Shown here piece by piece: positions 12,395 to 53,313 of a stretch of 64,000 nucleotides of DNA. The notes under the pieces are model-generated. The model ran no database searches. It worked only from the letters and a program-made list of their open reading frames with translations, and had not been told where the DNA came from. The position numbers were made by a program, and so were the translations under genes. This stretch comes from a virus, in the IMG/VR virus record IMGVR_UViG_3300025687_000024, positions 46,690 through 110,689 of that record, one strand, 5' to 3'. How positions within the stretch are numbered: the first letter of the stretch is position 1; every line of letters begins with the position of its first letter.

Positions 12395-13011
12395 AGCCCC
12401 TCACAACGCTGCTTCTGCAGTTGCTCGGCCCCGAGTACATCGACTGGGACTCCGAGGCGCTCTTCCTCGAGTTGGAAGAGCGTGGAGGCGTCCCCGTGGG
12501 TGCGATGACGCAGGAGCGCATCCAGGCGGTGCGTCTGATGCACCGGCAGCCCTCGTTCTGGCACGACTGGGGAGTGTTCGAGAACGTGACGGCGGCCATC
12601 CTCGGACACGGCGCGGTCTTCAGCCACGCTCAGCCCCCCGATGCGCACGAGATCGCGATCGCGTTGGACGTGGCGCGCGTCTTGGACGCCTCGCGTGCCT
12701 ACTCGGCCGAGGTGCTGCAGTACATCGTCAGTGCGCTGCTCTACGACGGCGTGTGGTACCTCGAGGAGCCTCTCGACCTTGCACAGGCGACCTTGGCGGA
12801 CCACGATAGCACCAAGGGCATCCTTCGGGACGTAGGTCAGGTGGCTGCCGTGCTACAGCGTGTTGGGAACCGCTACATCACGACGCCTTCGACAGCGGCC
12901 GAGGTGCAGGCCAACCACGTCATAGAGGTCAGGAAGGCACGAGCGGAGTACAATCAGCAGGTGCAGGCGCAGTTGCGCCAACTTCCGCAGATCCTCCAGG
13001 AGCTACGATGA
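12337..13011 (+). CDS. Hypothetical virion-block protein
   Basis: 224 residues if the GTG at 12337 is used (AGGAGGG just upstream), or 210 from the in-frame ATG at 12379. No family recognised. The C-terminal 50 residues are an Arg/Gln-rich helix (ARAEYNQQVQAQLRQLPQIL). It lies two genes ahead of the portal, where head-assembly proteins are common. The stop overlaps the next start by four bases. Confidence 0.72.
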   Translation: MKPLFQPARPFEDGMGLHVQPLTTLLLQLLGPEYIDWDSEALFLELEERGGVPVGAMTQERIQAVRLMHRQPSFWHDWGVFENVTAAILGHGAVFSHAQPPDAHEIAIALDVARVLDASRAYSAEVLQYIVSALLYDGVWYLEEPLDLAQATLADHDSTKGILRDVGQVAAVLQRVGNRYITTPSTAAEVQANHVIEVRKARAEYNQQVQAQLRQLPQILQELR

Positions 13012-13379
13012 GCCAGTACGACACCGTCAGGGAACAGATCATCCTCATGGCGTTCGAGGAAGAGCTCGAGAAGATCGCCGCCGGCTGGTTCACCCCCATC
13101 AAGAAGGGGCTGAAGTCGGCGGGCCACCGCATCATCTCCAAGGCGGCGCCCACGGGCAGCGGGGCGGCTACCGCTGGCATCCGCGGCCTGCGGAAGGGCG
13201 TGAAGCAGGGCAAGCGTGGCTACTGGAAGGCCGGCAAGAAGGCCAGCTTCAAGACGCGGGCGCGGGTCTTCGGAGCCAACGCCATGAACTTCGCCGCGCG
13301 GAACCCCGGTACCGCTGCTGCGGGCGTCGGCCTGGGAGCGGTCGGTGCGGGTGCTGTGGGCGCCAAGGTCCTGAGCTAA
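13008..13379 (+). CDS. Small basic internal-head candidate with ELEKIA leader
   Basis: 123 residues, or 110 from an ATG at residue 14. EELEKIAAGW lies near the N-terminus, the motif shared across the virion blocks. The body is rich in Lys/Arg/Gly and the C-terminus is a glycine-zipper stretch (AAAGVGLGAVGAGAVGA). Inferred as a packaged protein whose leader is removed and which may enter membranes at ejection. Directly upstream of the portal. Confidence 0.7.
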   Translation: MSQYDTVREQIILMAFEEELEKIAAGWFTPIKKGLKSAGHRIISKAAPTGSGAATAGIRGLRKGVKQGKRGYWKAGKKASFKTRARVFGANAMNFAARNPGTAAAGVGLGAVGAGAVGAKVLS

Positions 13380-32415: not shown

Positions 32416-33300
32416 ATGCAGGACTTCCTCACCAAGCTCGCCGAGGGCACCACCGGCGGGACTACCTCCGAGCATCTCTCCCTGTTGGGCAAGCGAGCGG
32501 CCAGTCGCTTCATGACCAAGGAGGCGGACTCGCTGAGTGCGGCTGTGCGGAGCGTGGTCGGCGAGGAATCGCTGAACCGTGACCAGGTGGAGCGCGTCAC
32601 CCAGGCCGCAAACCAGGCTGCCTGGCGCGGACTGTTCCACGAGGGTGAGCAGGACCCCAACATCGAATTCTCCCCGGCCAAGATCGACGAGGTGATCCAG
32701 CAGCCCGAGGCTTCGCCGGCTCCCCTTCAGCAGAGCATGGACTTCCTGGAGCCCCCGGTGGGGGAGCAGCTGCCGTCGGATGTCTCTCTGGAGGAGGCCT
32801 TCGGGGTGGACAAGACGGCCTCCCAGGACGAGTACCCCGAGCTCAACCCCGCGGCCGGGGCGGCGGCGCTGCACACCAAGACGGCTGCGGCGGAAGGCTT
32901 CCTGCGCTCTGACGCGGACCGGCTGGAGATCGAGGTGGGGCGCCTCGAGGACACCTTCTACGAGCTGGTCAAGCAGGCGCACCTGCAGCACGGGCACGGC
33001 ATCCTCCAGATCGCCGGCGCCGTCGGTGAGATCTGCGAGGAGCCCCCCTTCGCTCGGGCGGCCATGGAGAAGGTGGCCCAGCGTCTTCAGCGCAACGGGG
33101 TGATCATCAACCGCGCCAGCGAGATGCAGAAGCTCGCGATGGCGGTCACGGTCGATACCGAGCACCCCATCCTGACCACCTACGCCTCTCTCGAGAAGAC
33201 CGCGCATGCGGCTCGGGTGGCGCGCAGCGCGGCCCAGCAGGCCGCCGACGCCCGCAAGCTCTCCGGAGACTACCTGCGGGACAAGCTCAGGACGGCCTGA
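32416..33300 (+). CDS. Candidate head core protein with KxA motifs
   Basis: 294 residues. The N-terminus is MQDFLTKLAEG, and further motif copies are VDKTASQ, HTKTAAAEG, AMEKVAQ, MQKLAMA and SLEKTAHAA. The middle is acidic and Pro-rich; the end is helical and basic. First gene of the second rightward block. Motif density resembles the proteins at 11231 and 25174, so a protease-processed core or internal protein is inferred. Confidence 0.73.
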   Translation: MQDFLTKLAEGTTGGTTSEHLSLLGKRAASRFMTKEADSLSAAVRSVVGEESLNRDQVERVTQAANQAAWRGLFHEGEQDPNIEFSPAKIDEVIQQPEASPAPLQQSMDFLEPPVGEQLPSDVSLEEAFGVDKTASQDEYPELNPAAGAAALHTKTAAAEGFLRSDADRLEIEVGRLEDTFYELVKQAHLQHGHGILQIAGAVGEICEEPPFARAAMEKVAQRLQRNGVIINRASEMQKLAMAVTVDTEHPILTTYASLEKTAHAARVARSAAQQAADARKLSGDYLRDKLRTA

Positions 33301-33845
33301 TGAACGTGGTGCTCGCCCTGGCGTTCCAGCAGGAGCTGGAGAAGATCGCAGACGCGACGGCCGACTCGTGGTTCGGGCAGTACCGAAGCCACTGGCGGGG
33401 GGCGGCTGAATCGTCGCGGCCCGGAGCCAAGCGCTTCAACAAGGCGCTGGACATGCTCTGGAGCGGCAAGGAAGTTCAGACGCCCGGCATCGGGGGGAAG
33501 CTCGGGAAGCTTCCCTTCATCGGAGGTCCGTCGACGGTCCGTGTGGGCGGCATCGGCGGGGGCATCCAAGCTGGCGGCGAGGGCGTAGGCCGCGCCTTGC
33601 GCACGCCTGCCAGGATGCTCGTGGGTGTTCCGGCCAAGGCCGTGTGGCAGGGCACGAAGGCGGTCACCAAGGGAGTCGCCCGTACCGCGGGGACGGTCAT
33701 CCGCAAGCAGCCCCTCGGCGCCGCGATGACGGGCTACTTCGCCTACGCCGGAGCTGGGCACGGCGCCAGTGCGCTCCGACGAGGGACCGCACAAGCGAGA
33801 ACGGCTACCAAGCGATACATGGGGCAAGTCAGGAGGCCGACGTGA
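33300..33845 (+). CDS. Basic internal-head candidate with ELEKIA leader
   Basis: 181 residues. FQQELEKIADA lies at residues 9-19. The rest is Lys/Arg/Gly-rich, with a glycine-rich stretch (VRVGGIGGGIQAGGEGVG) and a hydrophobic AMTGYFAYAGAGHGA near the C-terminus. It fits a packaged, DNA-associated or membrane-inserting protein. Start overlaps the previous stop (TGATG). Confidence 0.7.
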   Translation: MNVVLALAFQQELEKIADATADSWFGQYRSHWRGAAESSRPGAKRFNKALDMLWSGKEVQTPGIGGKLGKLPFIGGPSTVRVGGIGGGIQAGGEGVGRALRTPARMLVGVPAKAVWQGTKAVTKGVARTAGTVIRKQPLGAAMTGYFAYAGAGHGASALRRGTAQARTATKRYMGQVRRPT

Positions 33846-34453: not shown

Positions 34454-36139
34454 ATGTCCGACTTCCCAGGCATCCCCAAGACGCTTCCCGTCACCGTCGG
34501 CGGCTCCGATCCGCTGGGGCGGTGCTTCGCCGAGGCGGTCGACGTCACGCGCGCGGGCGGTGGGGGCCTGGAGAAGATCGCCGGCGTGCGCGAGCTGCAT
34601 CCCGAGATCGACGCCTACCTGAAGCAGCTGCGGCCGGATCCGGCCTACCAGTTCGTGCTCATGACCCCGCTGGGGGCCTACGAGTACTGGGGGATGAACG
34701 TCAACGGGGACATCTTCCCCGAGATCGCGCTGGCGCACGACCACCTCAAGCAGAACCCCCGAGACGTCATCAGGCGCCTCGAGGCACGCTGGGTGACCCC
34801 GCACGGGCGACGCCTCCCCCCGGGCAACTACCACGAGTTCGGGCACAAGACGTTCCTGAACGCCAAGCGCTACCTGCACCACGTCAACAAGAACCCCGAG
34901 ATCGCCTACGGGGACATCGTGGTGGCGGTCTACAACCCCGCGATGCACCGCGTGGAGGTCATCGTCCGGCACGACCGGGAGATGGCCAAGAAGGTGGGGG
35001 CGCAGGATGTCATCGACGACATCGACGAGCGCAAGCCTCGCCAGATCTCGATGGGGTGCAAGGTTCCCTTCGACGTCTGCACCAAGTGCGGCTCCATCTC
35101 GAAGACCACGCGCGACTACTGCGAGTGCCTGCTCACGCAGCGGGCACAGATCCTGCCTGACGGGCGGATCGTCGGCATGGTCAACCTCTTCCCCCGCTTC
35201 TTCGACCTCTCGGACGTCTTCGTTCCGGCAGCGAAGGAGTCCGGGGTACTGCTCAAGGTGGCCTCGGCGGCAGGGACCCGCTTCTTCGTGCCGCACTCCT
35301 ACTTCGAGCGCATTGGTACGCGGCCGCCAGCGGACGCCATCGAGGTGACGCGCGAAGGCGTGCTGGTCAAGGTGGCGCACGACAAGCAGGCCGAAGCTGC
35401 CAAGAGCGCCGAAGTGACCAAGGAGATCCTCCCCAACGCTGGCCCGAATGTGGAGCGCCTGACTGCGCGCGAACCCGACATTCCAACCGGCCTGTTGGGG
35501 GGCGACTTCGAGCAGCTCGTCAACACGCTGGCGCTGCTGGGGATCGTGCTCAAGCCACACGAGTTCCAGCACGGAGCGCTCACAGGCGCGGGCCTGGGTG
35601 ACCTGGCGTCCCAGCTGAGCGCGAAGCGCCAGGTGTTCACGCCGGCTACCTCCGAGAGTGCGCTTCGCCTGAGCTGCGAGAGCTACAGTCCGAACCTCGC
35701 GCGCCTGTTGGCGTCCTTGCTGGCGTCCCGGTCTGCCTTCCATCCGCACCTTCCCGCGCGCTCGTTGCAGCTCGTCGTGGTGAAGTCTCCCAAGCTCCCG
35801 CCCAAGCGAGAGCAGGTCGAGAACACGCCACCTCTGCAGAAGGTTGCGGAGGCCTACGACGCCTACAGGAAGGCACTTGTCTACCTTCCAGGCCTGCTAC
35901 CGCAGGCTATCGACAACGACCCGGCCTTCTACCGGGAGCACTATCTGGGAGAACTCTTCGAGAACTCCTGGGAGAAGCTCGCGTCGGGGAGTACCGAGAA
36001 GGGGTTGTCTCCGCCCCCCGTATCGGTATACCTTACGGCTGCGCACCGTGATCGCGGTGGTGTTCCTTCTTCGTGGGATCGGGTACTACCTCCACACACA
36101 GCCGCACGGGCACTGCTCGGAATCGAGGATCTCTCATGA
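34454..36139 (+). CDS. Prohead protease, gp21-like
   Basis: 561 residues. The N-terminal third fits the phage prohead protease family: GMNVNGDIFPE, then LHHVNKNPEIAYG with H142/H143 and QISMGCKVPFD with S199, the expected His and Ser. A zinc-like group, CTKC with DYCEC, follows the serine as in several large-phage homologues. The C-terminal 300 residues are an extension carrying further KxA motifs (LLKVASA, LVKVAHD, LQKVAEAY, WEKLASG) and GLEKIAG occurs at 39-43. It should cleave capsid and internal proteins during head maturation; the EKxA sites in it suggest it also cuts itself. Confidence 0.85.
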   Translation: MSDFPGIPKTLPVTVGGSDPLGRCFAEAVDVTRAGGGGLEKIAGVRELHPEIDAYLKQLRPDPAYQFVLMTPLGAYEYWGMNVNGDIFPEIALAHDHLKQNPRDVIRRLEARWVTPHGRRLPPGNYHEFGHKTFLNAKRYLHHVNKNPEIAYGDIVVAVYNPAMHRVEVIVRHDREMAKKVGAQDVIDDIDERKPRQISMGCKVPFDVCTKCGSISKTTRDYCECLLTQRAQILPDGRIVGMVNLFPRFFDLSDVFVPAAKESGVLLKVASAAGTRFFVPHSYFERIGTRPPADAIEVTREGVLVKVAHDKQAEAAKSAEVTKEILPNAGPNVERLTAREPDIPTGLLGGDFEQLVNTLALLGIVLKPHEFQHGALTGAGLGDLASQLSAKRQVFTPATSESALRLSCESYSPNLARLLASLLASRSAFHPHLPARSLQLVVVKSPKLPPKREQVENTPPLQKVAEAYDAYRKALVYLPGLLPQAIDNDPAFYREHYLGELFENSWEKLASGSTEKGLSPPPVSVYLTAAHRDRGGVPSSWDRVLPPHTAARALLGIEDLS

Positions 36140-36567
36140 GCGACATGGCCTCCCTCCTGGACTCCATCTACAACTCCGACCAGCGGGTGAGCCCCCTCGA
36201 GAAGACCGCCGAGGCGGCCATGCTCGAGCAGCTGGGGCAGTCCGGACAGACCGCCGGCGCGCTGCGCGACATGAGCACCGCCGAGCTCATCGCCCTGGCC
36301 ACGCAGCTCGAGGCCGACGAGGGCACCGAGAAGACGGCCTCCGCCCAGCCGGCCGCGGCGGAGCCCGAGGACACCTCCGAGCTCGAGAAGGTGGCCTACG
36401 ACACCTTCGGCGGGCAGCTGATGGCCCACGCCTTCACCCACGAGCTGGGGCTCATGAAGGTCGCCATGATCAACGGCAAGTGCCGCGTGTGCAAGGAGAA
36501 CGCCATGGACATCCAGGGCAGCTCCATCTGCAGCGCCTGCCACGCCGAGGCAGACAGCGCCGAATAG
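36136..36567 (+). CDS. Small zinc protein with three EKxA motifs
   Basis: 143 residues. Three motif copies: PLEKTAE (20-26), GTEKTAS and ELEKVAY. The C-terminus holds a zinc ribbon, CRVC and CSAC. The layout suggests a leader and linker cut away from a zinc-binding product of about 65 residues. Starts inside the protease stop (ATGA), so the two are co-translated. Confidence 0.7.
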   Translation: MSDMASLLDSIYNSDQRVSPLEKTAEAAMLEQLGQSGQTAGALRDMSTAELIALATQLEADEGTEKTASAQPAAAEPEDTSELEKVAYDTFGGQLMAHAFTHELGLMKVAMINGKCRVCKENAMDIQGSSICSACHAEADSAE

Positions 36568-38536: not shown

Positions 38537-39565
38537 ATGAGCACCGACGCTGCCACCCTGAACCAGCTCTTCCTGGCCCATCTGGAGCACCCCGAGGGCA
38601 AGGAGAAGCTCGCGGCCGTGGGCCGTACCTACGTGCGTGACAAGCTGCGCGAGAACAGCTTCGCCCGCAAGATCCTCCCGCCCCAGATGGTCACCAAGGC
38701 CGACATGCAGGTGTCCGTGAACCACGACACCCTCGTCTACATCGACGAGATCGAGCCCAACTCCAGGGCCATGTCGCTGACCTTCCGCGGCCAGCCCACC
38801 GCGCGCTACATCCGCGCCTCCCGCTACGAGATCCCCATCTTCACCATCTCGAGCGAGCGCTTCGAGAAGACGGAGCAGGAGCTCCTCGCCTACCGGATGC
38901 CCATCACCCGGGTGATCGAGGACAACTCGGTCAAGGACATCCAGGAGATCGAGGACTACCGCTTCCTGGTCTACGTCGATGCGGCCATCTCCAACACCGA
39001 GCAGATCGTCAAGGGCACCCAGGCCCAGGACGATATCGAGGCCAACGGGCTGAACTCCGGCTTCCGCGGCACCCTCGAGCGCGCCGACCTGGTCCTGCTG
39101 TTCAAGGAGCTCGACTCCCGTCGTCGCCGCCTGGCCACGGTGCTGATGAACGAGGAGAACTGGGACGATGTCCTGAACTGGACCATCGAGGACTTCGGCG
39201 ACAAGCAGGCCTCGGTGACCGTCGACGGCTACACCTACGACCGCCTGATGGGTCGGAAGATCATCCGTACCATCAAGACGGACATCCTCCAGACCGGCAA
39301 CATCTACGGCTTCTGCGCGCCCGAGTGGCTCGGCAAGTTCCTCATCCTGAACGCCACCAAGTTCTACATCGACAAGGTGTACAACCTGGTCATGTGGCAG
39401 GCCTGGGAGGACATCGGCATGGGCATCGGCAACATCGCCAGCATGGCCAAGCTCGAGCTCTACAACGACACCACCGACGTCCTGATCTCCGAGGATGAGG
39501 TCGGCACCACGGTCTACAACGAGGCCGACGATGGTCTGACCTTCCCGCAGGTCAGCCACTACTAG
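38537..39565 (+). CDS. Major capsid protein
   Basis: 342 residues, AGGAG upstream. The sequence has the alternating pattern and length of an HK97-fold capsid protein: a charged N-terminal arm, an E-loop-like region (IEPNSRAMSLTFRGQPTARY), a spine helix (ELLAYRMPITRVIEDNSVKD) and P-domain segments (TLERADLVLLFKELDSRRRR). GKEKLAAVG at 21-29 matches the EKxA motif, so the first 26 or so residues may be cut off by the prohead protease. Preceded by scaffold, protease and decoration candidates in the usual head-gene order. Confidence 0.82.
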   Translation: MSTDAATLNQLFLAHLEHPEGKEKLAAVGRTYVRDKLRENSFARKILPPQMVTKADMQVSVNHDTLVYIDEIEPNSRAMSLTFRGQPTARYIRASRYEIPIFTISSERFEKTEQELLAYRMPITRVIEDNSVKDIQEIEDYRFLVYVDAAISNTEQIVKGTQAQDDIEANGLNSGFRGTLERADLVLLFKELDSRRRRLATVLMNEENWDDVLNWTIEDFGDKQASVTVDGYTYDRLMGRKIIRTIKTDILQTGNIYGFCAPEWLGKFLILNATKFYIDKVYNLVMWQAWEDIGMGIGNIASMAKLELYNDTTDVLISEDEVGTTVYNEADDGLTFPQVSHY

Positions 39566-40813: not shown

Positions 40814-41746
40814 ATGGCCATCCACGACGTCCTCGCCCGCATCTACGGCCTCGACAAGACCGCCTCCGAGCAGGAGACGGAGCTCGACCTCGACAACATG
40901 AGCGCCGTCGACTTCCTCGCCGGCATCGAGAGCGGCGAGATCGTCTACGTCGACGGTGACGAGCCCGAGGCCGAGAAGACCGCCGGCGACGAGGGAGAGC
41001 TCGACCTCGACAACATGAGCGCGACCCAGCTCCTGCAGGGGCTCGAGAGCGGCGAGATCGTGTTCGACGACGGCAGCGATCCCGAGGCCGAGAAGACCGC
41101 GGGCTTCGACCTCGACAGCCTCACCCAGGAGCAGCTCGAGAGCATGTCGGCCGAGGAGCTCATCGAGCTGGCCAACTCGCTCGACGAGGATCCCGGGGAG
41201 CAGGAGAAGGTCGCCGCCGAGCAGCAGTACTGGCTCGACGCCGGGGCCCTGATGGCGCGCGGCTACGCCTCCGAGCTGGAGAAGCTGTCCTCCGAGCAGA
41301 TGCCCGACGAGCTCGAGATCGACATGAGCAAGATCACCGGCGCCGATCTCGTGGAGCTCATGGAGCACTACGAGTTCGTCGAGGACGACGAGCCCCAGGT
41401 GGAGAAGACCGCCGGCGGGCTGGGCAGCCTCCTGAAGTTCAAGGGCGCCCGGAAGGCCTTCAAGGGCTCCCGGAAGGCCGGCGAGACGGCCGAGGAGGCC
41501 CTGAAGGCGCGCAAGAGCGCCGCCAAGGACGCCGCCAAGGCGGCGGGCAAGGGCGACGACAAGGCCGTCGTCGATGCCTTCAAGCGCGGCCGCGACGCCC
41601 ACAAGGCCGGCAAGGCCGCCAAGAAGGAAGCCCGCAAGCTGCGCCGCAAGGGCTACAAGAAGGCCGGGCAGAGCGCCGCGGTCTACGGCGGTGGCCTGGC
41701 CGCCGCTGGCGGACTCGCCGCGGGCACCAAGGCCGCGCTGGACTAG
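40814..41746 (+). CDS. Acidic-repeat precursor with basic C-terminal domain
   Basis: 310 residues, CGGAG before the ATG. Three acidic repeats (ELDLDNMSAVDFLAGIESGE, ELDLDNMSATQLLQGLESGE, ELEIDMSKITGADLVELMEH) each end in EKTAG; an additional LDKTAS is at 13-18 and QEKVAAE lies between repeats. After the last EKTAG, at about 204, comes a 100-residue Lys/Arg/Ala-rich domain (RKAFKGSRKAGETAEEALKA). The reading is a precursor in which acidic segments mask a DNA-binding domain until cleavage at EKTA. Not seen in families I know. Confidence 0.75.
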   Translation: MAIHDVLARIYGLDKTASEQETELDLDNMSAVDFLAGIESGEIVYVDGDEPEAEKTAGDEGELDLDNMSATQLLQGLESGEIVFDDGSDPEAEKTAGFDLDSLTQEQLESMSAEELIELANSLDEDPGEQEKVAAEQQYWLDAGALMARGYASELEKLSSEQMPDELEIDMSKITGADLVELMEHYEFVEDDEPQVEKTAGGLGSLLKFKGARKAFKGSRKAGETAEEALKARKSAAKDAAKAAGKGDDKAVVDAFKRGRDAHKAGKAAKKEARKLRRKGYKKAGQSAAVYGGGLAAAGGLAAGTKAALD

Positions 41747-41816: not shown

Positions 41817-42200
41817 ATGAACGAACTGCTCGCAGGCATCTACGGCACCGGCGACATGGAGAAGGTCGCCTCCCCCGTGGACCCGACCCGCCAGATGACC
41901 CTCGACGACCTGGCCACCGTCATCGTCGTCGACAGTCTCGGTGACGGCGCGGACATGGAGAAGGTCGCCGAGGCGCACCAGGAGGTCTTCGCCGACCTGG
42001 TGTCCTTCGATCGCGCCGGACGCGCCATGGCCCACCACGAGTTCACCGAGATGGAGAAGATGGCGGCCGCGGGTGACACGGAGGCCCTCGAGGCCTTCTT
42101 CGCCGATGTCGAGTTCGACGACGGCGGTGAGCCCGACCCCCGTCACGCCGCGCGCGAAGCCATCGCCGCGGAGCTGCAGCGCCGCGCCGGCCTGCAGTAG
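41817..42200 (+). CDS. Small acidic protein with three MEK[VM]A motifs
   Basis: 127 residues, AGGAGG upstream. DMEKVASP (13-20), DMEKVAEA and EMEKMAAA divide an acidic chain. The start (LLAGIYGTGDMEKVA) resembles that of the 310-residue precursor (VLARIYGLDKTA), so the two leaders are related. Likely another processed head-internal protein. Confidence 0.7.
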   Translation: MNELLAGIYGTGDMEKVASPVDPTRQMTLDDLATVIVVDSLGDGADMEKVAEAHQEVFADLVSFDRAGRAMAHHEFTEMEKMAAAGDTEALEAFFADVEFDDGGEPDPRHAAREAIAAELQRRAGLQ

Positions 42201-42851: not shown

Positions 42852-43442
42852 ATGAGCCACTCCTTGCCCCCCGAGCTCGCCCGCGGGTTCTTCTCCGAGC
42901 TGGAGAAGGTTGCCATCCTCCTCGGTGCCGGCACCGGAGCGGTCGCTGCCGGTCAAGGGAACCGGGGCGAGGGTGCGCTGTACGGAGGTGCCGGAGGCAT
43001 CTTGGGCGCCATGGCTGGCGCGACCCCGGGCGCTCTCGCTCAGATGGCGCGCGACACTCCCAAGAAGGCACGCCGTGGGCGAGGGAAGATCTCGGCCCTG
43101 ACCGCTCTCGGCGTCCTCACTGGAGAGGCTCTGGGCGGCGTCGCCGGCGGGCGCCTGGCCAAGAAGCACGCCCAGGAGCGCCGGGCAAAGCACCGGGAAG
43201 CCACCAAGAAGGCCGTGCGCGAAGCCCTCGCCGAGCAGAAGGAGAAGAAGGGCTCGGTCGAGAAGGTCGCTATCTCCGTCGCCGGTCCGGCGCAGCCGGG
43301 GGGCGCTGCGTTCGTGTTCCAGCTGGCCCGGAGTTCCCAGCGAGAGACCCAGCGCAACCTGCTGCGCCGCACCGGCAAGAAGGCGGTCAAGCTGCGCAAG
43401 AAGATCCCGGCTCCCCAGCAGGTGCCCGCCGCCGCCAAGTAG
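42852..43442 (+). CDS. Glycine-zipper protein with ELEKVA leader
   Basis: 196 residues. FFSELEKVAILL at 13-24 precedes a long glycine-zipper region (LLGAGTGAVAAGQ, YGGAGGILGAMAGATPGAL), typical of proteins that insert in membranes. A second motif, SVEKVAIS, lies at about 137. The C-terminal part is very basic. A packaged, ejected, membrane-active protein is the favoured reading. Confidence 0.7.
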   Translation: MSHSLPPELARGFFSELEKVAILLGAGTGAVAAGQGNRGEGALYGGAGGILGAMAGATPGALAQMARDTPKKARRGRGKISALTALGVLTGEALGGVAGGRLAKKHAQERRAKHREATKKAVREALAEQKEKKGSVEKVAISVAGPAQPGGAAFVFQLARSSQRETQRNLLRRTGKKAVKLRKKIPAPQQVPAAAK

Positions 43443-43449
43443 GTGACCC

Positions 43450-43938
43450 ATGCTCTCTGCGCCGCTACAGGATGCCTTCATCGCCGAGCTGGAGAAGATC
43501 GCCTTCCTCAAGACCCTCCGGCGGGCCAAGCCCAAGACGCCGCCGAAGCGCGTACGTCGCTTCCGGGTGAAGGCCAACTCCGGGCACCAGCCCGGGGTCG
43601 TGCGCAACGGCTACCTCGAGGCACCGCCCTCCCAAGCGGAGACCAACCGCATCGCTCGGCAGTTCCTCAAGGACCTCGAGAAGCGGTCCTTCGCCAAGGT
43701 GGTCACGAAGAACACCACCCGCGTGGCCCGTAGTGGTTGGGAGAAGGCAGTGCGCCCCAATCCGTCCGGGATGATCAACCAGACACGCGCCTGGACCATC
43801 CGCCCGCGTGGAGCCCCCGCCGCATCCCAGCGCGCCACCTCCAAGCCCACCAAGCTGAAGGGGTGGGTGCGTCGCAGCACCAAGGAAGAGGTCCGTGCGG
43901 GGCCGCGCCCCGCGCTGGCGCGGGGCGCAGTCAGCTGA
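43450..43938 (+). CDS. Very basic protein with ELEKIA leader
   Basis: 162 residues. FIAELEKIAFL at 10-20, then a strongly cationic, Pro-containing chain (RAKPKTPPKRVRRFRVKANS) with no hydrophobic core. It resembles phage internal DNA-binding proteins in composition. Ends just before the 303-residue gene. Confidence 0.7.
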   Translation: MLSAPLQDAFIAELEKIAFLKTLRRAKPKTPPKRVRRFRVKANSGHQPGVVRNGYLEAPPSQAETNRIARQFLKDLEKRSFAKVVTKNTTRVARSGWEKAVRPNPSGMINQTRAWTIRPRGAPAASQRATSKPTKLKGWVRRSTKEEVRAGPRPALARGAVS

Positions 43939-43957: not shown

Positions 43958-44869
43958 ATGCTCGTTCCCGTCAACATCCGGGTCTGGACCCTCTCCCGCG
44001 ACTCCCTGACCATCTCCTGGGCGTTCCGCAACACCACGGCAGCGCTGGGCGACTACAGCATCACGGTGCTGCGGTCTGGTTCCGCTGCGGGAGGGTACGA
44101 GGAGATCTCGAGCGCCTTCGCGGCAGACGCGACCGTGGAGTTCGTGGACTCCGAGGTAGTCCTGCACTCCAAGTGGCGGGAGTATTTCTACCGGCTGCGG
44201 GTCACGGCGCCCGATGGCTCGACCACGGACTTCGGCTCGGTGGACTACAAGAGGGTCCTGGCTGGAGACGACGCCGGCGGCGTCGTGCTGGAGAGCTTGC
44301 CCGACCTGGTGGCCCTCGAGGCCATCCGGCGTTTCGACATGCTCCTGCAGACCAAGATCGGGCGGGAGCTCCTGGTGCTCAACCACAGGTCCACTGGGCA
44401 GCGCTGTGCCGAGTGTTGGGACAACTTGAAGAGGCGACGTACCAAGAGCAAGTGCCTGACCTGCTACGGCGTGGGGGTCTCCGGGGGGTACTACTTCCCC
44501 AAGCAGGCCTGGGCCGCCAAGGTACCCCACCGGGCATCCGTACAGCTCACCCCGCTGTTCGAGATGCAGAACAACGACGCGCTCCTGTGGATGTCGTCGC
44601 GTCCACGGGTGGTCCCGCGTGACCTGGTCATCGATGCTGATGGGCGGCGCTGGCGCGTCATCGACATTCAGCGGCACGAGAAGCTGTGGGCTCTCACCCG
44701 ACAGACCGTGCAGGTGCGCGAGCTGTCCAAGGACCAGGTGGAGTACGACATCCCGATCTCGGCTGACGAGTGGGACATCGACCCGGTGGCGGCCACGCCC
44801 TACAGGCAGTACATCAATGCTACGAACCTCGACAGTCACCGTCGAGCGAAGCGGGAGCTTGGCCTATGA
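43958..44869 (+). CDS. Neck or tail-completion candidate with zinc pair
   Basis: 303 residues. The N-terminal 100 residues read as an Fn3/Ig-like beta sandwich (VWTLSRDSLTISWAFRNTTA). Two CxxC pairs, CAEC and CLTC, lie near residues 149-170. The C-terminal third is beta-rich. It is flanked by leader-bearing small genes and followed by the tail sheath region, so a head-tail joining role is plausible. No leader motif is present, as in other structural components here. Confidence 0.65.
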   Translation: MLVPVNIRVWTLSRDSLTISWAFRNTTAALGDYSITVLRSGSAAGGYEEISSAFAADATVEFVDSEVVLHSKWREYFYRLRVTAPDGSTTDFGSVDYKRVLAGDDAGGVVLESLPDLVALEAIRRFDMLLQTKIGRELLVLNHRSTGQRCAECWDNLKRRRTKSKCLTCYGVGVSGGYYFPKQAWAAKVPHRASVQLTPLFEMQNNDALLWMSSRPRVVPRDLVIDADGRRWRVIDIQRHEKLWALTRQTVQVRELSKDQVEYDIPISADEWDIDPVAATPYRQYINATNLDSHRRAKRELGL

Positions 44870-45417
44870 TCATGCCCACCCTCTCCGTCGCAACCGTCCG
44901 CGCCTTCCAAGGCGAGCTGGTCAAGATCGCGAAGGTGACCCCAGCTACCGTGGCCCTCGGGGCGCTCGCGGGAGGCAGCGCTGGGGCACTGGCGCACAAG
45001 CACTACACCAAGGACGAGCGGTCGAAGGACGAACTGCTGCGGGACCTGAAGCGCATGCCCGAGAAGACCTACCAGGCTCGGCGCAAGGAGCGGGGTGCGC
45101 GCACGGCAGGCGCGGCGGCGCTCGGCGCCATGACGGGCGCGGGGGCTCCCGTGCTCTACAGGGAGGCGGCCCGAGCTGTTGGGCGCGCAGTGGACCGCAC
45201 GGTCAAGCCCACGCTGCAGACGGCCAAGAGCGGGATCGACGACTCCGTTGAGAAGGGCGTCGCCGAGTACGACCGCATGCTGCAGCGCCAGGCCGACTAC
45301 CTGCTCGACCAGCTCCGCGGTCCGCGGGGGGCACGCGCCGCCGAGACCCTCGGGGAGAGTGCGCGCAAGGGCTTCCTGCCCAGGTTCCTCCGCCGGCGGA
45401 GGGCCAACCCGCAGTGA
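44866..45417 (+). CDS. Internal-head candidate with ELVKIA leader
   Basis: 183 residues (ATG 44866, or 44872). FQGELVKIAKV at 14-24, a short glycine-zipper (VALGALAGGSAGALAH) and a basic helical body with a second Gly/Ala segment (GAAALGAMTGAGAP). Same architecture as its neighbours. GGGAG is nine bases upstream. Confidence 0.68.
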   Translation: MIMPTLSVATVRAFQGELVKIAKVTPATVALGALAGGSAGALAHKHYTKDERSKDELLRDLKRMPEKTYQARRKERGARTAGAAALGAMTGAGAPVLYREAARAVGRAVDRTVKPTLQTAKSGIDDSVEKGVAEYDRMLQRQADYLLDQLRGPRGARAAETLGESARKGFLPRFLRRRRANPQ

Positions 45418-49400: not shown

Positions 49401-49560
49401 CCAGGGCCTGGGCCGCTACCTGGTCGAGGCGGGGGTGCTCTCCACCTTCTCCATCTCCAGCATCGGCGTGGACCCGGATGCCTCCGACACCGTGAACGTC
49501 ACCGTCGTCATCTCGGTGCCCTACCCCTGCAACTACATCGCCATCGAGCTCCAGGTCTGA
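46498..49560 (+). CDS. Tail sheath protein
   Basis: 1020 residues, about one and a half to two times usual sheath length. The C-terminal 130 residues are the conserved sheath core: RHQLTTDVASIERREWSIRT, TAMFFQQSLARQVGVNNITQ and ETAGGALKCRH. The N-terminal segment (SITRPGIQVSTTETTSSPTI) is also sheath-like. The centre contains long Asp/Gly/Thr-rich beta domains, with related blocks at EAGDVVRLAYMGVTYDIVIE and EAGDIVIVAALADSA. These are probably surface domains inserted into the core. It defines the phage as a myovirus. Confidence 0.9.
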   Translation: MSITRPGIQVSTTETTSSPTIVQPTLRACLIGPCFRLIDAFDDEGALDSDAYAGTYRDGYGTIAYDLPSFGAEDDLTGFDDEVRVFLVNSDDSYTELNSSSDEETLEAGTGDYTQASGVFEDGAALFESEGVEAGDVVRLAYMGVTYDIVIESVDGETLLTIDNTGVPENLSNVAYTVVRNPAQFAYQSSAQQSYVLLGEEGDYLSIQTQPLGDYAGSTGDGLSLTLQETSAYTSGADLAYGDCVFYDSDADKSFETAVDLEDTNYLFIGAGPGTTLTAITAVYDDNTLIVATGEGADQTGLSYVVGKQTDSGDNGATAGGDETAFSAAGQNFLTSIPQVGGAGTAPLADTFLYISGVGVYQITEVTSDEALVIAAGAGAGLSGKDFETVEVIQADTTGCFFDDDELLSPSDDFSDVPAEVTDYDVVVGGVGYTIASIAAGKVTVDAALPGDGGAAQSYGVYITDADLLVQWDATAETLTVTLARADGLSVGTLDSLYDALTNDEAEGYDADVAEVFTAAEEVGSGDLTDYLGTYTFDGGADADQLLLDADLMGSTVPTGRVYVSYKALRLDVTPAAEEPQLLSYESTTESVAALGAANAENPLSLAFYKALQNATGKSVAGIGVDDVSAARPMGTAEAYDAAFSFLEGESVYFLVPLTQDVVVQQALQVHVEAMSEPENKAFRCCLINQVLPEYSSATLVSSGTDLNTEADFATTGTMTASVDFVAAGVEAGDIVIVAALADSASSPDVAYGTQGPLYGFVVEEVGPDDDNFTLTLDVADHAALAALWASQVDVSFSIYRSGSAISTASAQATALAEIGPNFDSARVVLVWPDEVLASIDSTEQAIEGFYLAAAVAGKKSRLPPQRGLTNSTVAGFTGLRHSSGYFSSSQLDEIAGGGTMIFMQETAGGALKCRHQLTTDVASIERREWSIRTTIDYTAMFFQQSLARQVGVNNITQSYLDSLATQIQGLGRYLVEAGVLSTFSISSIGVDPDASDTVNVTVVISVPYPCNYIAIELQV

Positions 49561-50408
49561 TGTACGCCTTCCTCGGCTTTCGCAGCGAACTGAACAAGAT
49601 CGCTGCCTCGGACAACCCAGACGTCACGCGAATGCTCGCGGCGGCGCTGGACTCCCAGGATCGAGCCGAGCGTCTCGAAGGCTTGCTGGACGCCTCCAAG
49701 AAGTCCGCCTACCCCAAGGCCATTGCCGCCGGGGCGCTGGCGGGCTTCGGGATGCCCTTCCTCTACGGCGTCCTGCCGACTCTCCAGGGACGCAAGGCGC
49801 TGGAGGAGGCGGTACAGCAGCGTGTCAACGAGAAGTACCTGACCGCGGCCGTCGAGGACATCCTCGGGCTGTCCGGCAAGGATGCCCGCGGGACCGCCCA
49901 GTCCATCATGGGCTTCATGAAGTCCAAGCCAGCCGCTTGGACTTCGGCTGGCGAGGAGGCGTTGAAGTCGCTGCGGCTGGCCCGAGGCACCCAACCCGCC
50001 CAAGGCGCCTTTGCTCTGATGGGGCAGGGCGGGACTCCCATCGTCGGGCAGATGGGCTTCCGCACCTCGGGCGAAGGCCTGGCGCAGACCCTGCGCCAGG
50101 CTGGGATGGGAGGGGACGTCGCGCGGCGCTACGTCATGGAGTCCTCCCCCTCGGTGGTCCACGCCTTCCCCGAAGGGATGGAGTGGCGCAACATCATCGA
50201 GGACTCGCGTGAGGTCTACAAGCGCAAGCACGGCAAGTTGCCGAAGTCCGGTGCCCGTCTGAAGATCCTGAGCAAGATCCTGGCCGAGAAGAGCGTGGGC
50301 GCGGCGCGCAGCGCGCTTCCCTTTGCTCTCTTGGGCGGCGGACTCGCCGCGCTTCGGGTACGTTCGAAGCGCCAGCAAGCCGAAGACCTCCGACGGAGAA
50401 TCGGATGA
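49560..50408 (+). CDS. Internal-head candidate with ELNKIA leader
   Basis: 282 residues. FRSELNKIAAS at 7-17 follows a short N-terminus. A hydrophobic Gly/Ala segment (AIAAGALAGFGMPFLYGVLP) and a helical basic body follow; a second hydrophobic segment (SALPFALLGGGLAALRV) ends the chain. It lies between the sheath and tube genes, an unusual place. Start overlaps the sheath stop by one base. Confidence 0.68.
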   Translation: MYAFLGFRSELNKIAASDNPDVTRMLAAALDSQDRAERLEGLLDASKKSAYPKAIAAGALAGFGMPFLYGVLPTLQGRKALEEAVQQRVNEKYLTAAVEDILGLSGKDARGTAQSIMGFMKSKPAAWTSAGEEALKSLRLARGTQPAQGAFALMGQGGTPIVGQMGFRTSGEGLAQTLRQAGMGGDVARRYVMESSPSVVHAFPEGMEWRNIIEDSREVYKRKHGKLPKSGARLKILSKILAEKSVGAARSALPFALLGGGLAALRVRSKRQQAEDLRRRIG

Positions 50409-51451
50409 GCACCTCCATGACCGATCGTGAAGCCCTGATCCGCTTCCTGCAGCTCCCTGCCTCACAGCGGCAGGAGGTGGCGCAGTCCGTGCGCAAGGCC
50501 GGGAAGGCTGGCAGGGTCGCAGGCGGCGCTGCGGGCTTCACCGCGGGTGCCGTGGCCACCAGCCCGCTCATCCGAGCCATCGCCAAGGTGAAGAACCCCG
50601 TCACGCAGACCCTGCTGCTCTCCGCCACGGTGGGAGCGGGGCACGTGGCCCCCACCATGGCAGGCGCCCGACTCGGCAAGCGAGTGGCCGAGAAGCGCCA
50701 CTTCAAGGGGAAGCTGAAGCGCCTGCAGGCGCCGGCTCTCATGCAGTCGGGGTACCCCCTGCAGAAGGCAGCCCAGGACAGCCGGGAGGACATCGTACTC
50801 CGCGGCCGAACGATGGCGCATGCCTTCTACGACGAGATCGAGAAGTTGGCGGAAGCCGCCGTGCGCCGTGAGCGCTTGATGCCCAAGGAGTCTCCCGTGC
50901 AGGGTGTCCTGGGTGCCGATGTGGAGCAGGAAGACGACAAGAACGCGCGCGCGGTCCCTGTGCTGGACCCGCCGCCTGGCTACGTGTTCTCCCCCGAGCT
51001 CGGAGCCTTCACGCCCGACCCCGCCAACCCTGGCTGGATGACGCCTGAGCAGGCCGAAGAGGCCCGCAAGCACAAGCTCTACTACGATGAGGGCTACCAG
51101 GCGGCCGCGCAGAACCAGGAAGAGGTGGCCCAGATGGAGCAGCAGGGCGCCCAGATGTCACCGCAGCCCGGGATGCCGGGTACGCCTGGCGACATCGCGG
51201 GCTCTGGTCAGGGGCCTGCAGCGATGCAGCCCGGTGCCGATCCTGCTGCCGGTCAGGCCGCAGCCGCGGGCCAGCCCGCACAACCCGGGGGCCAGGCGGC
51301 AGCGCCTGCTCCCGGCACGGAGGCGGCAGCGCAAGCTGCGGGACAGCCCACGCCTCCCCCTGCCCCGGAGGCTGAGCAGCCGGCCTCTTCCCCGTCGCCC
51401 AAGAACAAGAAGCCTTCGTCCCGGGACATCACCATCAAGGTGAGCCGGTAG
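50405..51451 (+). CDS. Possible two-part protein with internal FYDEIEKLA motif
   Basis: 348 residues. The N-terminal 135 have a glycine zipper (VAGGAAGFTAGAVATSPLIR) and a basic helix. At about residue 138 MAHAFYDEIEKLAEA begins, exactly like the N-terminus of the other leader proteins. The C-terminal half is Pro/Ala/Gln-rich and disordered. It looks like a fusion of two leader-type genes, or one frame with an internal start; no clear ribosome binding site precedes the internal ATG. Confidence 0.65.
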   Translation: MSTSMTDREALIRFLQLPASQRQEVAQSVRKAGKAGRVAGGAAGFTAGAVATSPLIRAIAKVKNPVTQTLLLSATVGAGHVAPTMAGARLGKRVAEKRHFKGKLKRLQAPALMQSGYPLQKAAQDSREDIVLRGRTMAHAFYDEIEKLAEAAVRRERLMPKESPVQGVLGADVEQEDDKNARAVPVLDPPPGYVFSPELGAFTPDPANPGWMTPEQAEEARKHKLYYDEGYQAAAQNQEEVAQMEQQGAQMSPQPGMPGTPGDIAGSGQGPAAMQPGADPAAGQAAAAGQPAQPGGQAAAPAPGTEAAAQAAGQPTPPPAPEAEQPASSPSPKNKKPSSRDITIKVSR

Positions 51452-51463
51452 AGGAGACCCCCC

Positions 51464-52219
51464 ATGGCCACGATGTCCGACTGGAACTTCTTCAACCGCA
51501 ACGTACAGAGCGGCATGCTCGAGGGGCGGTTCATGAATGCGGCCTTCACGCTGGTGGCCGCGGGGCCGCCACGGCTCGCCGCAGCCGGCGTGGACGTGGA
51601 GAGCGGCGAGCTCACGGAGCTGGGCAACATCGCCTACCCCATCGGCGTGCTGCAGAGCATCAACCTGGGCCAGAACTCCAACATCGTCCGGCTGTGGGAG
51701 ATCGGCTCCATGCGGAGCTACTTCGCCCGCGGGCGGACCATGGGTCAGGTCGGGCTCGGCCGCATCATGTACCACGGCCCCTCCCTGCTGCGCGTGATGT
51801 ACGCCTACCTGGGCGGGCGGCTCGACACGGGCGAGGAGTTCCTCGCGCTGTACGAGAACTCGGCCAAGGCCAAGCTCAACACCAGCGGTGAGGAGGGAGG
51901 CAAGCAGGTCTACCGGCTCCCGCCGGGCTACGAGAACCTGTGGCTGGACCTGGCCTCCGACGTCTTCGACCAGCCCATCGGCCTGCTGGTCTACATGCGC
52001 GACTCCAACGAGGACACCATCGGCGCGTTCTACCTGGAGTACTGCATGATCGCCAACCACGGGTGGATGGCGGACGCCTCCGGCACCATCATGTCCGAGA
52101 ACGTCGGCGTGATGTACGAGCGCATCATCCCCATCGACATCCGTGCCGTGGAGCTCATCCGGTCCAGCGAGGACGTGGAGAGCATCGTGGGCGCGAACGT
52201 GATCGGCAGCGCGGCCTAG
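51464..52219 (+). CDS. Tail tube protein
   Basis: 251 residues, GGAG upstream. Beta-rich sequence of tube-protein length (LQSINLGQNSNIVRLWEIGS, FYLEYCMIANHGWMADASGT), with the Gly-rich RTMGQVGLGRIMYHGP. It is the first structural gene downstream of the sheath without a leader motif, the usual order being sheath then tube. The assignment is from position, size and beta content. Confidence 0.7.
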   Translation: MATMSDWNFFNRNVQSGMLEGRFMNAAFTLVAAGPPRLAAAGVDVESGELTELGNIAYPIGVLQSINLGQNSNIVRLWEIGSMRSYFARGRTMGQVGLGRIMYHGPSLLRVMYAYLGGRLDTGEEFLALYENSAKAKLNTSGEEGGKQVYRLPPGYENLWLDLASDVFDQPIGLLVYMRDSNEDTIGAFYLEYCMIANHGWMADASGTIMSENVGVMYERIIPIDIRAVELIRSSEDVESIVGANVIGSAA

Positions 52220-53313
52220 GCTACGCGAGGTACCGCGGGAGCCGCTCCGGCAGCGCCCGGGGCAGCGGGCTGAGGGATGCGCCGGTGGCGGAAGTTCCCG
52301 GCGGCGGGCTGCAGCTCTGCACGCATGGCGGGGTTCTGCGGGCGGTCCTCCAGGTGACGCTTGAGGGCCACCGCGCCCGTCAGGCCCGCAAGGGCTCCGC
52401 CTCCGATCATGGCCGGAACGCCGGCGAGGTGCTTCAGTCGGAAGTACCTGTAGGCCGAGGGGGCCCGCGGGACCTTCCCCGTGGCCGCGGTGATGGCTGC
52501 CTTCTCACGCGACATCGCCTTGGACTTGGCCTCGCCCACGGCGTGCTCGGCCTGGCGGAACACGCCCTGGCGGTCGAAGCCCCGCTGTGGGGCGAAACGA
52601 GCCTCGACGCCCGTGTCCACCTTGAGCTTGTCCCCGCCCAACCCGTCGAAGGCCGACCGGATGCTCTTGGACATCCGGTCGTAGTCGTAGACGTCCATCT
52701 GCCAGGCGCCGCGCTTCCGCCGCTCGAGCTGCTTCCGGATCTGGGCGGTGGGCTTCTCCAGCCGGATGGCCACATCGAAGTGACCCGGGTTGGCCTTGGT
52801 GAAGATGTGGCTCTGGTCCATGACGATGCCCTTGCGGCCCTTCAGCCCAGCGCTCTCGATGTACTTCTCGACCTGGCGCCCCTTGGTGAGGTGCTTGCCA
52901 GCCGCGTCCAGGTCGCGATGCTCCAGGCCGAGCTGCCTGGCGAGCTCGCGCGCCAGCGTGGTCTTGCCCGTGCCTCCCGTGGCGCCGATTGCGATGTTGA
53001 TCTTCTTCGGATCCAGGCCTCGGCGTCGAATCTCCTTGGCGATGGCCTTGGCCTGCGCGATGACCTGGGGAGGGGTGCCCCGCTTGGCCGCTTCCTGGGC
53101 CTCTATCGCCCGGGCGCCTCCCTTGCCGATGCTGGCGAGGTGGGCGCCGAGCTCGATGCGCAAGCCCTTGTACCTGCCCAGCACCCCGGCGGTACCCGCG
53201 GCCGTTCCGGCAGCCGCGCCGCCGGCTCCGGCCATCACGTCACCCTCGTCCACACGGGGAGCAGCGATCTTCTCGAGCTCGTCACAGAAGGCGTAGTAGG
53301 TCGTGCCGGACAT
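52216..53313 (-). CDS. P-loop kinase with ELEKIA leader
   Basis: 365 residues. FCDELEKIAAP at 9-19 is the virion-block leader. A Gly/Ala stretch (MAGAGGAAAGTAAGTAGVLG) follows, then a kinase-like domain with Walker A IGATGGTGKTT (about 109-119), the acidic VMDQSH region and a basic lid-like ERRKRGAW. A second glycine-rich span (VPAMIGGGALAGLTGAVAL) lies near the C-terminus. The substrate is unknown. It is the only leader-bearing gene on the minus strand, convergent with the tube gene with four shared bases. A virion-packaged, injected enzyme is inferred. Confidence 0.78.
   Translation of the reverse strand: MSGTTYYAFCDELEKIAAPRVDEGDVMAGAGGAAAGTAAGTAGVLGRYKGLRIELGAHLASIGKGGARAIEAQEAAKRGTPPQVIAQAKAIAKEIRRRGLDPKKINIAIGATGGTGKTTLARELARQLGLEHRDLDAAGKHLTKGRQVEKYIESAGLKGRKGIVMDQSHIFTKANPGHFDVAIRLEKPTAQIRKQLERRKRGAWQMDVYDYDRMSKSIRSAFDGLGGDKLKVDTGVEARFAPQRGFDRQGVFRQAEHAVGEAKSKAMSREKAAITAATGKVPRAPSAYRYFRLKHLAGVPAMIGGGALAGLTGAVALKRHLEDRPQNPAMRAELQPAAGNFRHRRIPQPAAPGAAGAAPAVPRVA

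Follow-up and report, generated by a model that had tools for sequence, protein, structure and literature searches.

The product of gene 40814..41746 is very probably the precursor of an internal head (core) protein of a large myophage, which would be cut together with other head proteins at Lys-x-Ala (K-x-A) sites by a protease of the gp21 fold; sequence comparison and structural modelling both point to this. The gene lies in a 64,000-nucleotide stretch of viral DNA, here called the window, which covers positions 46690–110689 of a 110,689-base virus record. The best reading of the sequences is a T4-like head proteolysis whose sites are K-x-A, where those of T4 and SPN3US end in Glu. The computations establish the motif and how widely it occurs, show it concentrated in proteins of the head and in tagged ones, and identify the protease as well as the sites that flank its domain. 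The coordinates are collected in Table 1.

Table 1. Features of the window that bear on the proposed head proteolysis (aa, amino acid positions; a slash in a site marks the predicted cut)
Feature	Coordinates	Strand	Remarks
Protein with N-terminal tag FEEELEKIA	13008..13379	+	
Basic protein, N-terminal tag FQQELEKIA	33300..33845	+	body +20
Head maturation protease, 561 aa	34454..36139	+	C-terminal extension; conserved H142/H143, S199
Site EKIA just before protease catalytic domain	34571..34582	+	K41, A43; K-x-A 31/34, K-x-S 3/34
Site LKVA just after protease catalytic domain	35252..35263	+	K268, A270; K-x-A 29/34
Small acidic protein, three sites	36136..36567	+	core-like; upstream of major capsid protein
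Major capsid protein	38537..39565	+	N-terminal site EKLA, aa 23-26 (38603-38614)
Acidic multi-site head precursor with basic C-terminal tail	40814..41746	+	310 aa
Predicted site 1, DKTA/S	40853..40864	+	aa 14-17; K15, A17, S18 invariant in 6 homologues
Acidic repeat 1	40877..40984	+	EKTA/G at end, aa 54-57
Acidic repeat 2	40994..41101	+	EKTA/G at end, aa 93-96; tandem copy of repeat 1
Predicted site EKVA/A	41204..41215	+	aa 131-134; K132, A134 invariant in 6 homologues
Degenerate site EKLS	41306..41317	+	aa 165-168; EK[TVILM]S variant enriched 3.3x family-wide
Acidic repeat 3, diverged	41315..41413	+	EKTA/G at end, aa 197-200
Basic tail, predicted mature fragment	41414..41743	+	aa 201-310, net +19, pI 10.5
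Small acidic protein, three sites	41817..42200	+	adjoins 40814..41746; similar N-terminus LLAGIYGTG..EKVAS
Basic protein, N-terminal tag FFSELEKVA	42852..43442	+	body +24
Basic protein, N-terminal tag FIAELEKIA	43450..43938	+	body +29, pI 12
Protein with N-terminal tag FQGELVKIA	44866..45417	+	
Protein with N-terminal tag FRSELNKIA	49560..50408	+	
P-loop (kinase/AAA-like) protein, N-terminal tag FCDELEKIA	52216..53313	-	

The gene begins with ATG. The original prediction described three acidic repeats, each closed by EKTAG, and a basic domain starting right after the last of them. Both features were borne out: the repeats occupy aa 22–57, 61–96 and 168–200, and the basic region begins directly past the last EKTAG. 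Its inventory of sites was right for the three EKTAG but incomplete, as DKTAS at aa 14, EKVAA at aa 131 and the degenerate EKLS had been overlooked. There are five predicted sites in all (DKTAS14, EKTAG54, EKTAG93, EKVAA131 and EKTAG197), with EKLS at aa 165 as an extra degenerate one. Repeats 1 and 2 are a clear tandem duplication and repeat 3 has diverged; EKTAG54 and EKTAG93 are not independent of each other because both sit in the duplication, and the K-x-A signal is strong because the motif recurs in unrelated proteins. When the protein was cut in silico after the Ala of each [DE]K[TVILM]A, the computed pieces were 1–17 (net 0), 18–57 (−12), 58–96 (−11), 97–134 (−11), 135–200 (−14) and 201–310 (+19, pI 10.5), among them four acidic pieces (net −11 to −14) and the 110-aa basic tail. 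The predicted model of the protein was poor (mean pLDDT 52.8), and all five sites lay in its lowest-confidence stretches (chance about 0.008). A known family for the protein was rejected, there being no PHROG or meaningful Pfam match and no tblastn match in 50,697 phage records. Sequence homology to the core and internal proteins of T4 (gp22, gp67, IPs) was not detected, and the protein is likened to them by analogy only.

A near-identical copy of the gene is present in locus L002, and loci L003–L007 hold homologues at the same position with 29–37% identity; a wider search with the protein returned only five loci, every one from already known contigs. In an alignment of six homologous proteins the acidic parts align, including the invariant residues listed in Table 1, and the basic tails hardly align. 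The switch from acidic to basic coincides with a K-x-A site in four of the six, three residues off in the fifth and about 8 residues past the site in the sixth (that of L005). A long basic tail (+9 to +22) after the last switch is kept in all six, and K-x-A sites are retained in homologues that lack the duplicated repeats. Because the switch tracks the K-x-A site in homologues whose tails cannot be aligned, the sequences support release of a basic fragment from the precursor.

The spread of the motif was determined in the virion module of the window (11–54 kb, 42 proteins) and in the 34 other proteins called there. [DE]K[TVILM]A occurred 36 times in the module, against 2.6 ± 1.4 expected from within-protein shuffles (maximum 7 in 200), and 0 times in the other 34 proteins; the version with Arg for Lys was found 0 times in the module (3.3 expected). 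Using the major capsid protein as query, we found 80 relatives, and motif counts were taken from their forward genes. In the 56 longer loci, with related sequences pooled, 627 motifs were counted against 67 expected, and the Arg version stayed at chance level (48 against 55). The consensus in these loci was E/D-K-[TVILM]-A-[S/E/A]. An artefact of composition is rejected by the shuffles and the Arg control.

Head and tail genes were compared using a wider pattern, K[TVILMASEQN]A[ASGE], and each gene was labelled head or tail by its position, family matches and the annotation of Salmonella phage Arash, which together with Vibrio phage D69 is the nearest cultured relative (capsid protein 30–34% identical). 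The pattern occurred in head genes 26 times in the window (4.8 expected), 31 times in Arash (4.5) and 29 times in D69 (5.7); the corresponding counts in tail genes were 4 (3.7), 4 (3.3) and 2 (3.0). Sites in Arash and D69 often have no Glu before Lys (x-K-x-A, as in LVKEAG and LTKEAS), and their x is more often E, Q, S or A than in the window. Since this Glu is not kept, Lys and Ala are the constants of the site, and the residues flanking them differ between phage groups; a T4-like cut after Glu (L/I-x-E) was rejected as a general rule for the same reason. We also noted a 672-aa protein of the tail region (25174–27192) with five EK[TV]A/DKIA sites and no family match, a candidate exception to the head-only rule or else a candidate misplaced head or cargo protein.

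Gene 34454..36139 can be identified, from sequence and model together, as a gp21-fold head maturation protease. The order terminase (29245), protease (34454) and capsid protein (38537) is the same in relatives. The protease homologues of Arash and D69 match the PHROG "head maturation protease" (2e-6 and 7e-7), and phrog_18299 is matched by 10 of the 34 family members (best 6.6e-7); the window copy itself does not reach this head maturation protease PHROG and matches only phrog_2774, which is also matched by other members of the family. An AF2 model built from 29 sequences had a mean pLDDT of 72.6. Foldseek alone found no significant match to it in the PDB, and a PDB sequence search with the protease profile gave nothing useful. 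When the model was re-aligned to PDB structures with a second-look aligner, T4 gp21 (5jbl) came top (Z 10.1, rmsd 2.9 Å, 142 of 164 residues) and herpesvirus proteases came next (Z up to 5.9), in a list in which the absence of other folds carries no weight. Residues H142, H143 and S199, the candidate catalytic residues, are invariant in the 34 sequences. D221, which is E in Arash and D69, is a candidate third catalytic residue, and the candidate His-Ser-Asp order is the same as that reported for SPN3US gp245 (H77-S153-D178).

In all 34 proteases a K-x-A (31) or K-x-S (3) stands directly before the catalytic domain. The density of sites per 100 aa is 4.8 before the domain, 0.07 inside it and 3.5 in the linker after it, and both flanks are of low model confidence, as expected of disordered linkers. 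The C-terminal region of the protease (aa 330–500) is mostly confidently modelled and is kept in relatives. A homologue at L035:4431-6593 has an apparent large insert in the C-terminal linker, and other homologues are 940–1340 aa long. Among the 34 members scanned, one matches an inorganic pyrophosphatase domain (PF18823, E 8e-40), and the insert of L035 is consistent with PF18823. The linker may be a slot for cargo domains, cut out by the flanking K-x-A sites.

Among the loci with an intact capsid protein N-terminus, all 81 have K-x-[AS] just before the conserved N-arm of this protein (79 Ala, 2 Ser), although these sequences are related and not independent. The site also forms part of a longer tag: the pattern [FY]..[EDQ][LIM].K[ILVTM]A was found in 8 window proteins against 0.03 expected, in 7 of them within the first 16 residues, and in 3 more genes in the remaining 47 kb of the genome. 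This F..ELEKIA-type tag on otherwise unrelated proteins looks, from its sequence, like a combined sorting and cleavage signal. The P-loop protein of 52216–53313, encoded on the minus strand outside the head module, starts with YYAFCDELEKIAAP and is a candidate for an enzyme that travels in the head and is delivered together with the DNA. A small basic protein of D69 (L083:23181-23636; MDNVDTLLEKIAAKSKKPRKKK) has an N-terminal LLEKIA site and a basic body, like the window protein at 43450. A second common stretch, G[RQ]xMAHA[FY]xxE (GRTMAHAFYDEIEKLA, GRAMAHHEFTEMEKMA, GGQLMAHAFTHELGLMKVA), occurs in the proteins of 40814–41746, 41817–42200, 36136–36567 and 50405–51451, and links otherwise different acidic proteins, also in relatives (GRVMAHAYADE). 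The stretch leads into a K-x-A site and could be an internal form of the N-terminal tag.

Arash gp220–gp226 and their D69 homologues comprise the same capsid and protease families, with K-x-A dense in head and not in tail genes; a homologue of the 40814..41746 protein was not detected in either phage. Virion mass spectrometry in the Arash paper covered 86.6% of the capsid protein and 100% of the core-like Gp221 and Gp223. Because of this coverage (86.6–100%), parts of the precursors are still detected in the virions, a point against the proposed cleavage, and the published table cannot show cut ends; the paper reports the proteins found in virions and mentions no protease, cleavage or processing.

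As an out-of-sample test, bacterial genome contigs were scanned with the protease alignment alone. Three new loci were found, in bins named Deltaproteobacteria, Bilophila and Dependentiae, which are perhaps phage contigs. All three have K-x-A before the protease domain (FEKTAA, LVKTAS, FEKSAS) and after it (MKIASA, LDKLAS, FKIAKT), and the motif was counted 32, 18 and 31 times against 5.0, 5.5 and 6.8 expected; a capsid-like protein in one of them carries GLEKEA at its N-terminus. Two phages were considered as possible wider members. Gp19 of Bacillus phage G is a distant homologue of the protease with LVKTAA before and LEKVAS after the domain, but unlike the window this phage has a capsid protein N-terminus without a K-x-A site and a weak enrichment of the motif in head genes, and so fits at the protease only. 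Mycobacteriophage LinStu, in which a distant protease homologue is present and the motif was not evident, does not clearly fit. The LinStu homologue, gp97 (L088:9410-13270; 1286 aa, annotated as hypothetical), has an N-terminal domain homologous to the window protease; a gp97-type protein stands upstream of the capsid gene in Bxz1-like mycobacteriophages, and about 195 mycobacteriophage records match.

The proposed processing resembles known systems in several respects. T4 gp21 cuts at L/I-x-E, the core proteins of T4 are cleaved into numerous fragments, most of which exit the head, and its capsid targeting sequences direct internal proteins into the head before being cut off (PMC9026906). Gp245 of SPN3US cuts at A-x-E with Ser preferred after the cut (PMC10052503), and head proteolysis in phiKZ (gp175) also occurs after Glu (PMC9026906). 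With T4 the window shares a serine protease of the gp21 fold that is encoded in the head module, several sites in each core protein (gp22, gp67 and gp68 in T4), a short three-residue site, N-terminal tags on internal proteins (IPI–III and Alt in T4) and an N-terminal propeptide of the capsid protein, which is predicted here. The tag resembles the T4 targeting sequences by function, not by shared sequence. The two differ in the site, L/I-x-E in T4 and K-x-A followed by Ser, Ala, Glu or Gly here, and the window protease has a long C-terminal extension, unlike T4 gp21. The 40814..41746 precursor joins serial acidic repeats to a basic tail, and we know of no T4 protein that does so. SPN3US and phiKZ have a large virion, a self-trimming gp21-related protease, multiple propeptide cuts and, in SPN3US, a preference for Ser after the cut, all of which would hold for the phage of the window too; the P3-x-P1 layout is shared with T4 and SPN3US, whereas P1 is Glu in SPN3US and phiKZ and Ala is predicted here. 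The phiKZ site is S-x-E, and the assemblins of herpesviruses have Ala before the cut and Ser after it. The assemblins are the second-best fold match of the window protease (Z up to 5.9 against 10.1), and they come from eukaryotic viruses and differ at P2–P4.

The proposal that EKTA is a cleavage site is strongly supported at the level of sequence: K-x-A recurs across head proteins, the module also encodes the protease, and sites stand on both sides of the protease domain and ahead of the conserved part of the capsid protein. That the scheme was not recognised from known phages held for the K-x-A site, of which we found no description in the open literature, and did not hold for the processing logic, already known from the heads of T4 and SPN3US. 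Our search covered the open-access literature; within it neither a K-x-A nor an ELEKIA site had been described, and searches there on capsid targeting in jumbo phages and on the head of phage G gave no earlier account. The proposed K-x-A specificity is new to the literature searchable in this way.

We envisage that the acidic multi-site proteins (36136, 40814 and 41817) and the tagged basic proteins would gather with the protease in the prohead core, the acidic part of the 40814 precursor most likely holding it in the scaffold or core. This part may also keep the basic domain off the DNA until the head matures. Such shielding of a DNA-binding domain is plausible, and a scaffold/core or core-anchoring role, by analogy with the T4 core proteins, fits equally well. 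On activation during prohead maturation the protease (34454..36139) would free itself and then cut sites of the form (acidic or hydrophobic)-K-x-A/(S/A/G/E), with x mostly T, V, I, L or M. We infer that the scissile bond follows Ala; it may instead lie one residue away, or after Lys. The 40814 precursor would then yield a short N-terminal peptide, four small acidic peptides, which would leave the head or stay as filler, and a strongly basic C-terminal fragment; basic fragments probably remain with the packaged DNA.

The motif could instead serve for docking or capsid targeting, as a peptide that binds the capsid interior or the scaffold, and be no protease site, or be cut only incidentally. 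The form [FY]..[ED][LIM].K[IV]A near the N-terminus of 7 unrelated window proteins, and of others elsewhere in the genome, is what one would expect of a sorting tag, and the targeting sequences of T4 unite the sorting and cutting roles (PMC9026906). A docking peptide accounts poorly for short, tagless K-x-A sites that lie on both flanks of the protease domain and in series in the acidic proteins and avoid the folded catalytic domain; moreover, K and A are constant and the residues around them vary between groups, which resembles protease subsites. We therefore regard docking without programmed cleavage as improbable. It is still less credible, to a degree that we scarcely entertain it, that the 40814 protein binds DNA in the manner of a histone and stays uncut, its acidic domain tuning or inhibiting that binding and its repeats being plain tandem duplications. 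Two-part acidic/basic proteins do occur without cleavage, and repeats 1 and 2 are clearly duplicated, but homologues without the duplication still keep the sites and the same site is present in non-homologous head proteins.

A third possibility concerns the fate of the products and is a sub-case of cleavage, so that its probability overlaps that of the preferred reading: the sites would be cut, but the whole 40814 protein would be a sacrificial scaffold, all pieces including the basic tail leaving the head and no DNA-binding product remaining. The T4 core proteins, whose fragments mostly exit the head, are a precedent (PMC9026906), and the basic tails of the homologues differ strongly. Against this, every one of the six retains a long basic tail of +9 to +22 beyond the last switch, and several neighbouring basic proteins have an N-terminal site only, or nearly so, which is the layout of the internal proteins retained in the T4 head. 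We consider complete loss of the pieces unlikely, if a good deal less so than the two alternatives above, and continue to prefer a core precursor whose cleavage at K-x-A leaves a basic fragment.

Numerous head proteins in a large and little-studied phage group share the K-x-A site. In the characterised gp21-related phage head proteases that we checked (T4, phiKZ and SPN3US) the cut follows Glu; cutting at Lys-x-Ala, with Ala as the last residue before the scissile bond, would, if true, represent a new branch, nearer to the herpesvirus rule. We would give even chances to the fuller picture of a large group of myophages, most of them uncultured, that combines this new specificity of a gp21-fold protease with a portable sort-and-cut signal, [FY]xx[ED]LxK[IV]A, and with serial acidic units that silence a DNA-condensing basic domain until its release in the prohead. 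In barely annotated genomes the K-x-A site would serve as a reading key that flags head-bound unknown proteins, mature ends and removable tags. The head content and cargo loading of this phage group can thereby be tested directly, Arash being one example: it is grown in Salmonella, and mass spectrometry of its virions has been published.
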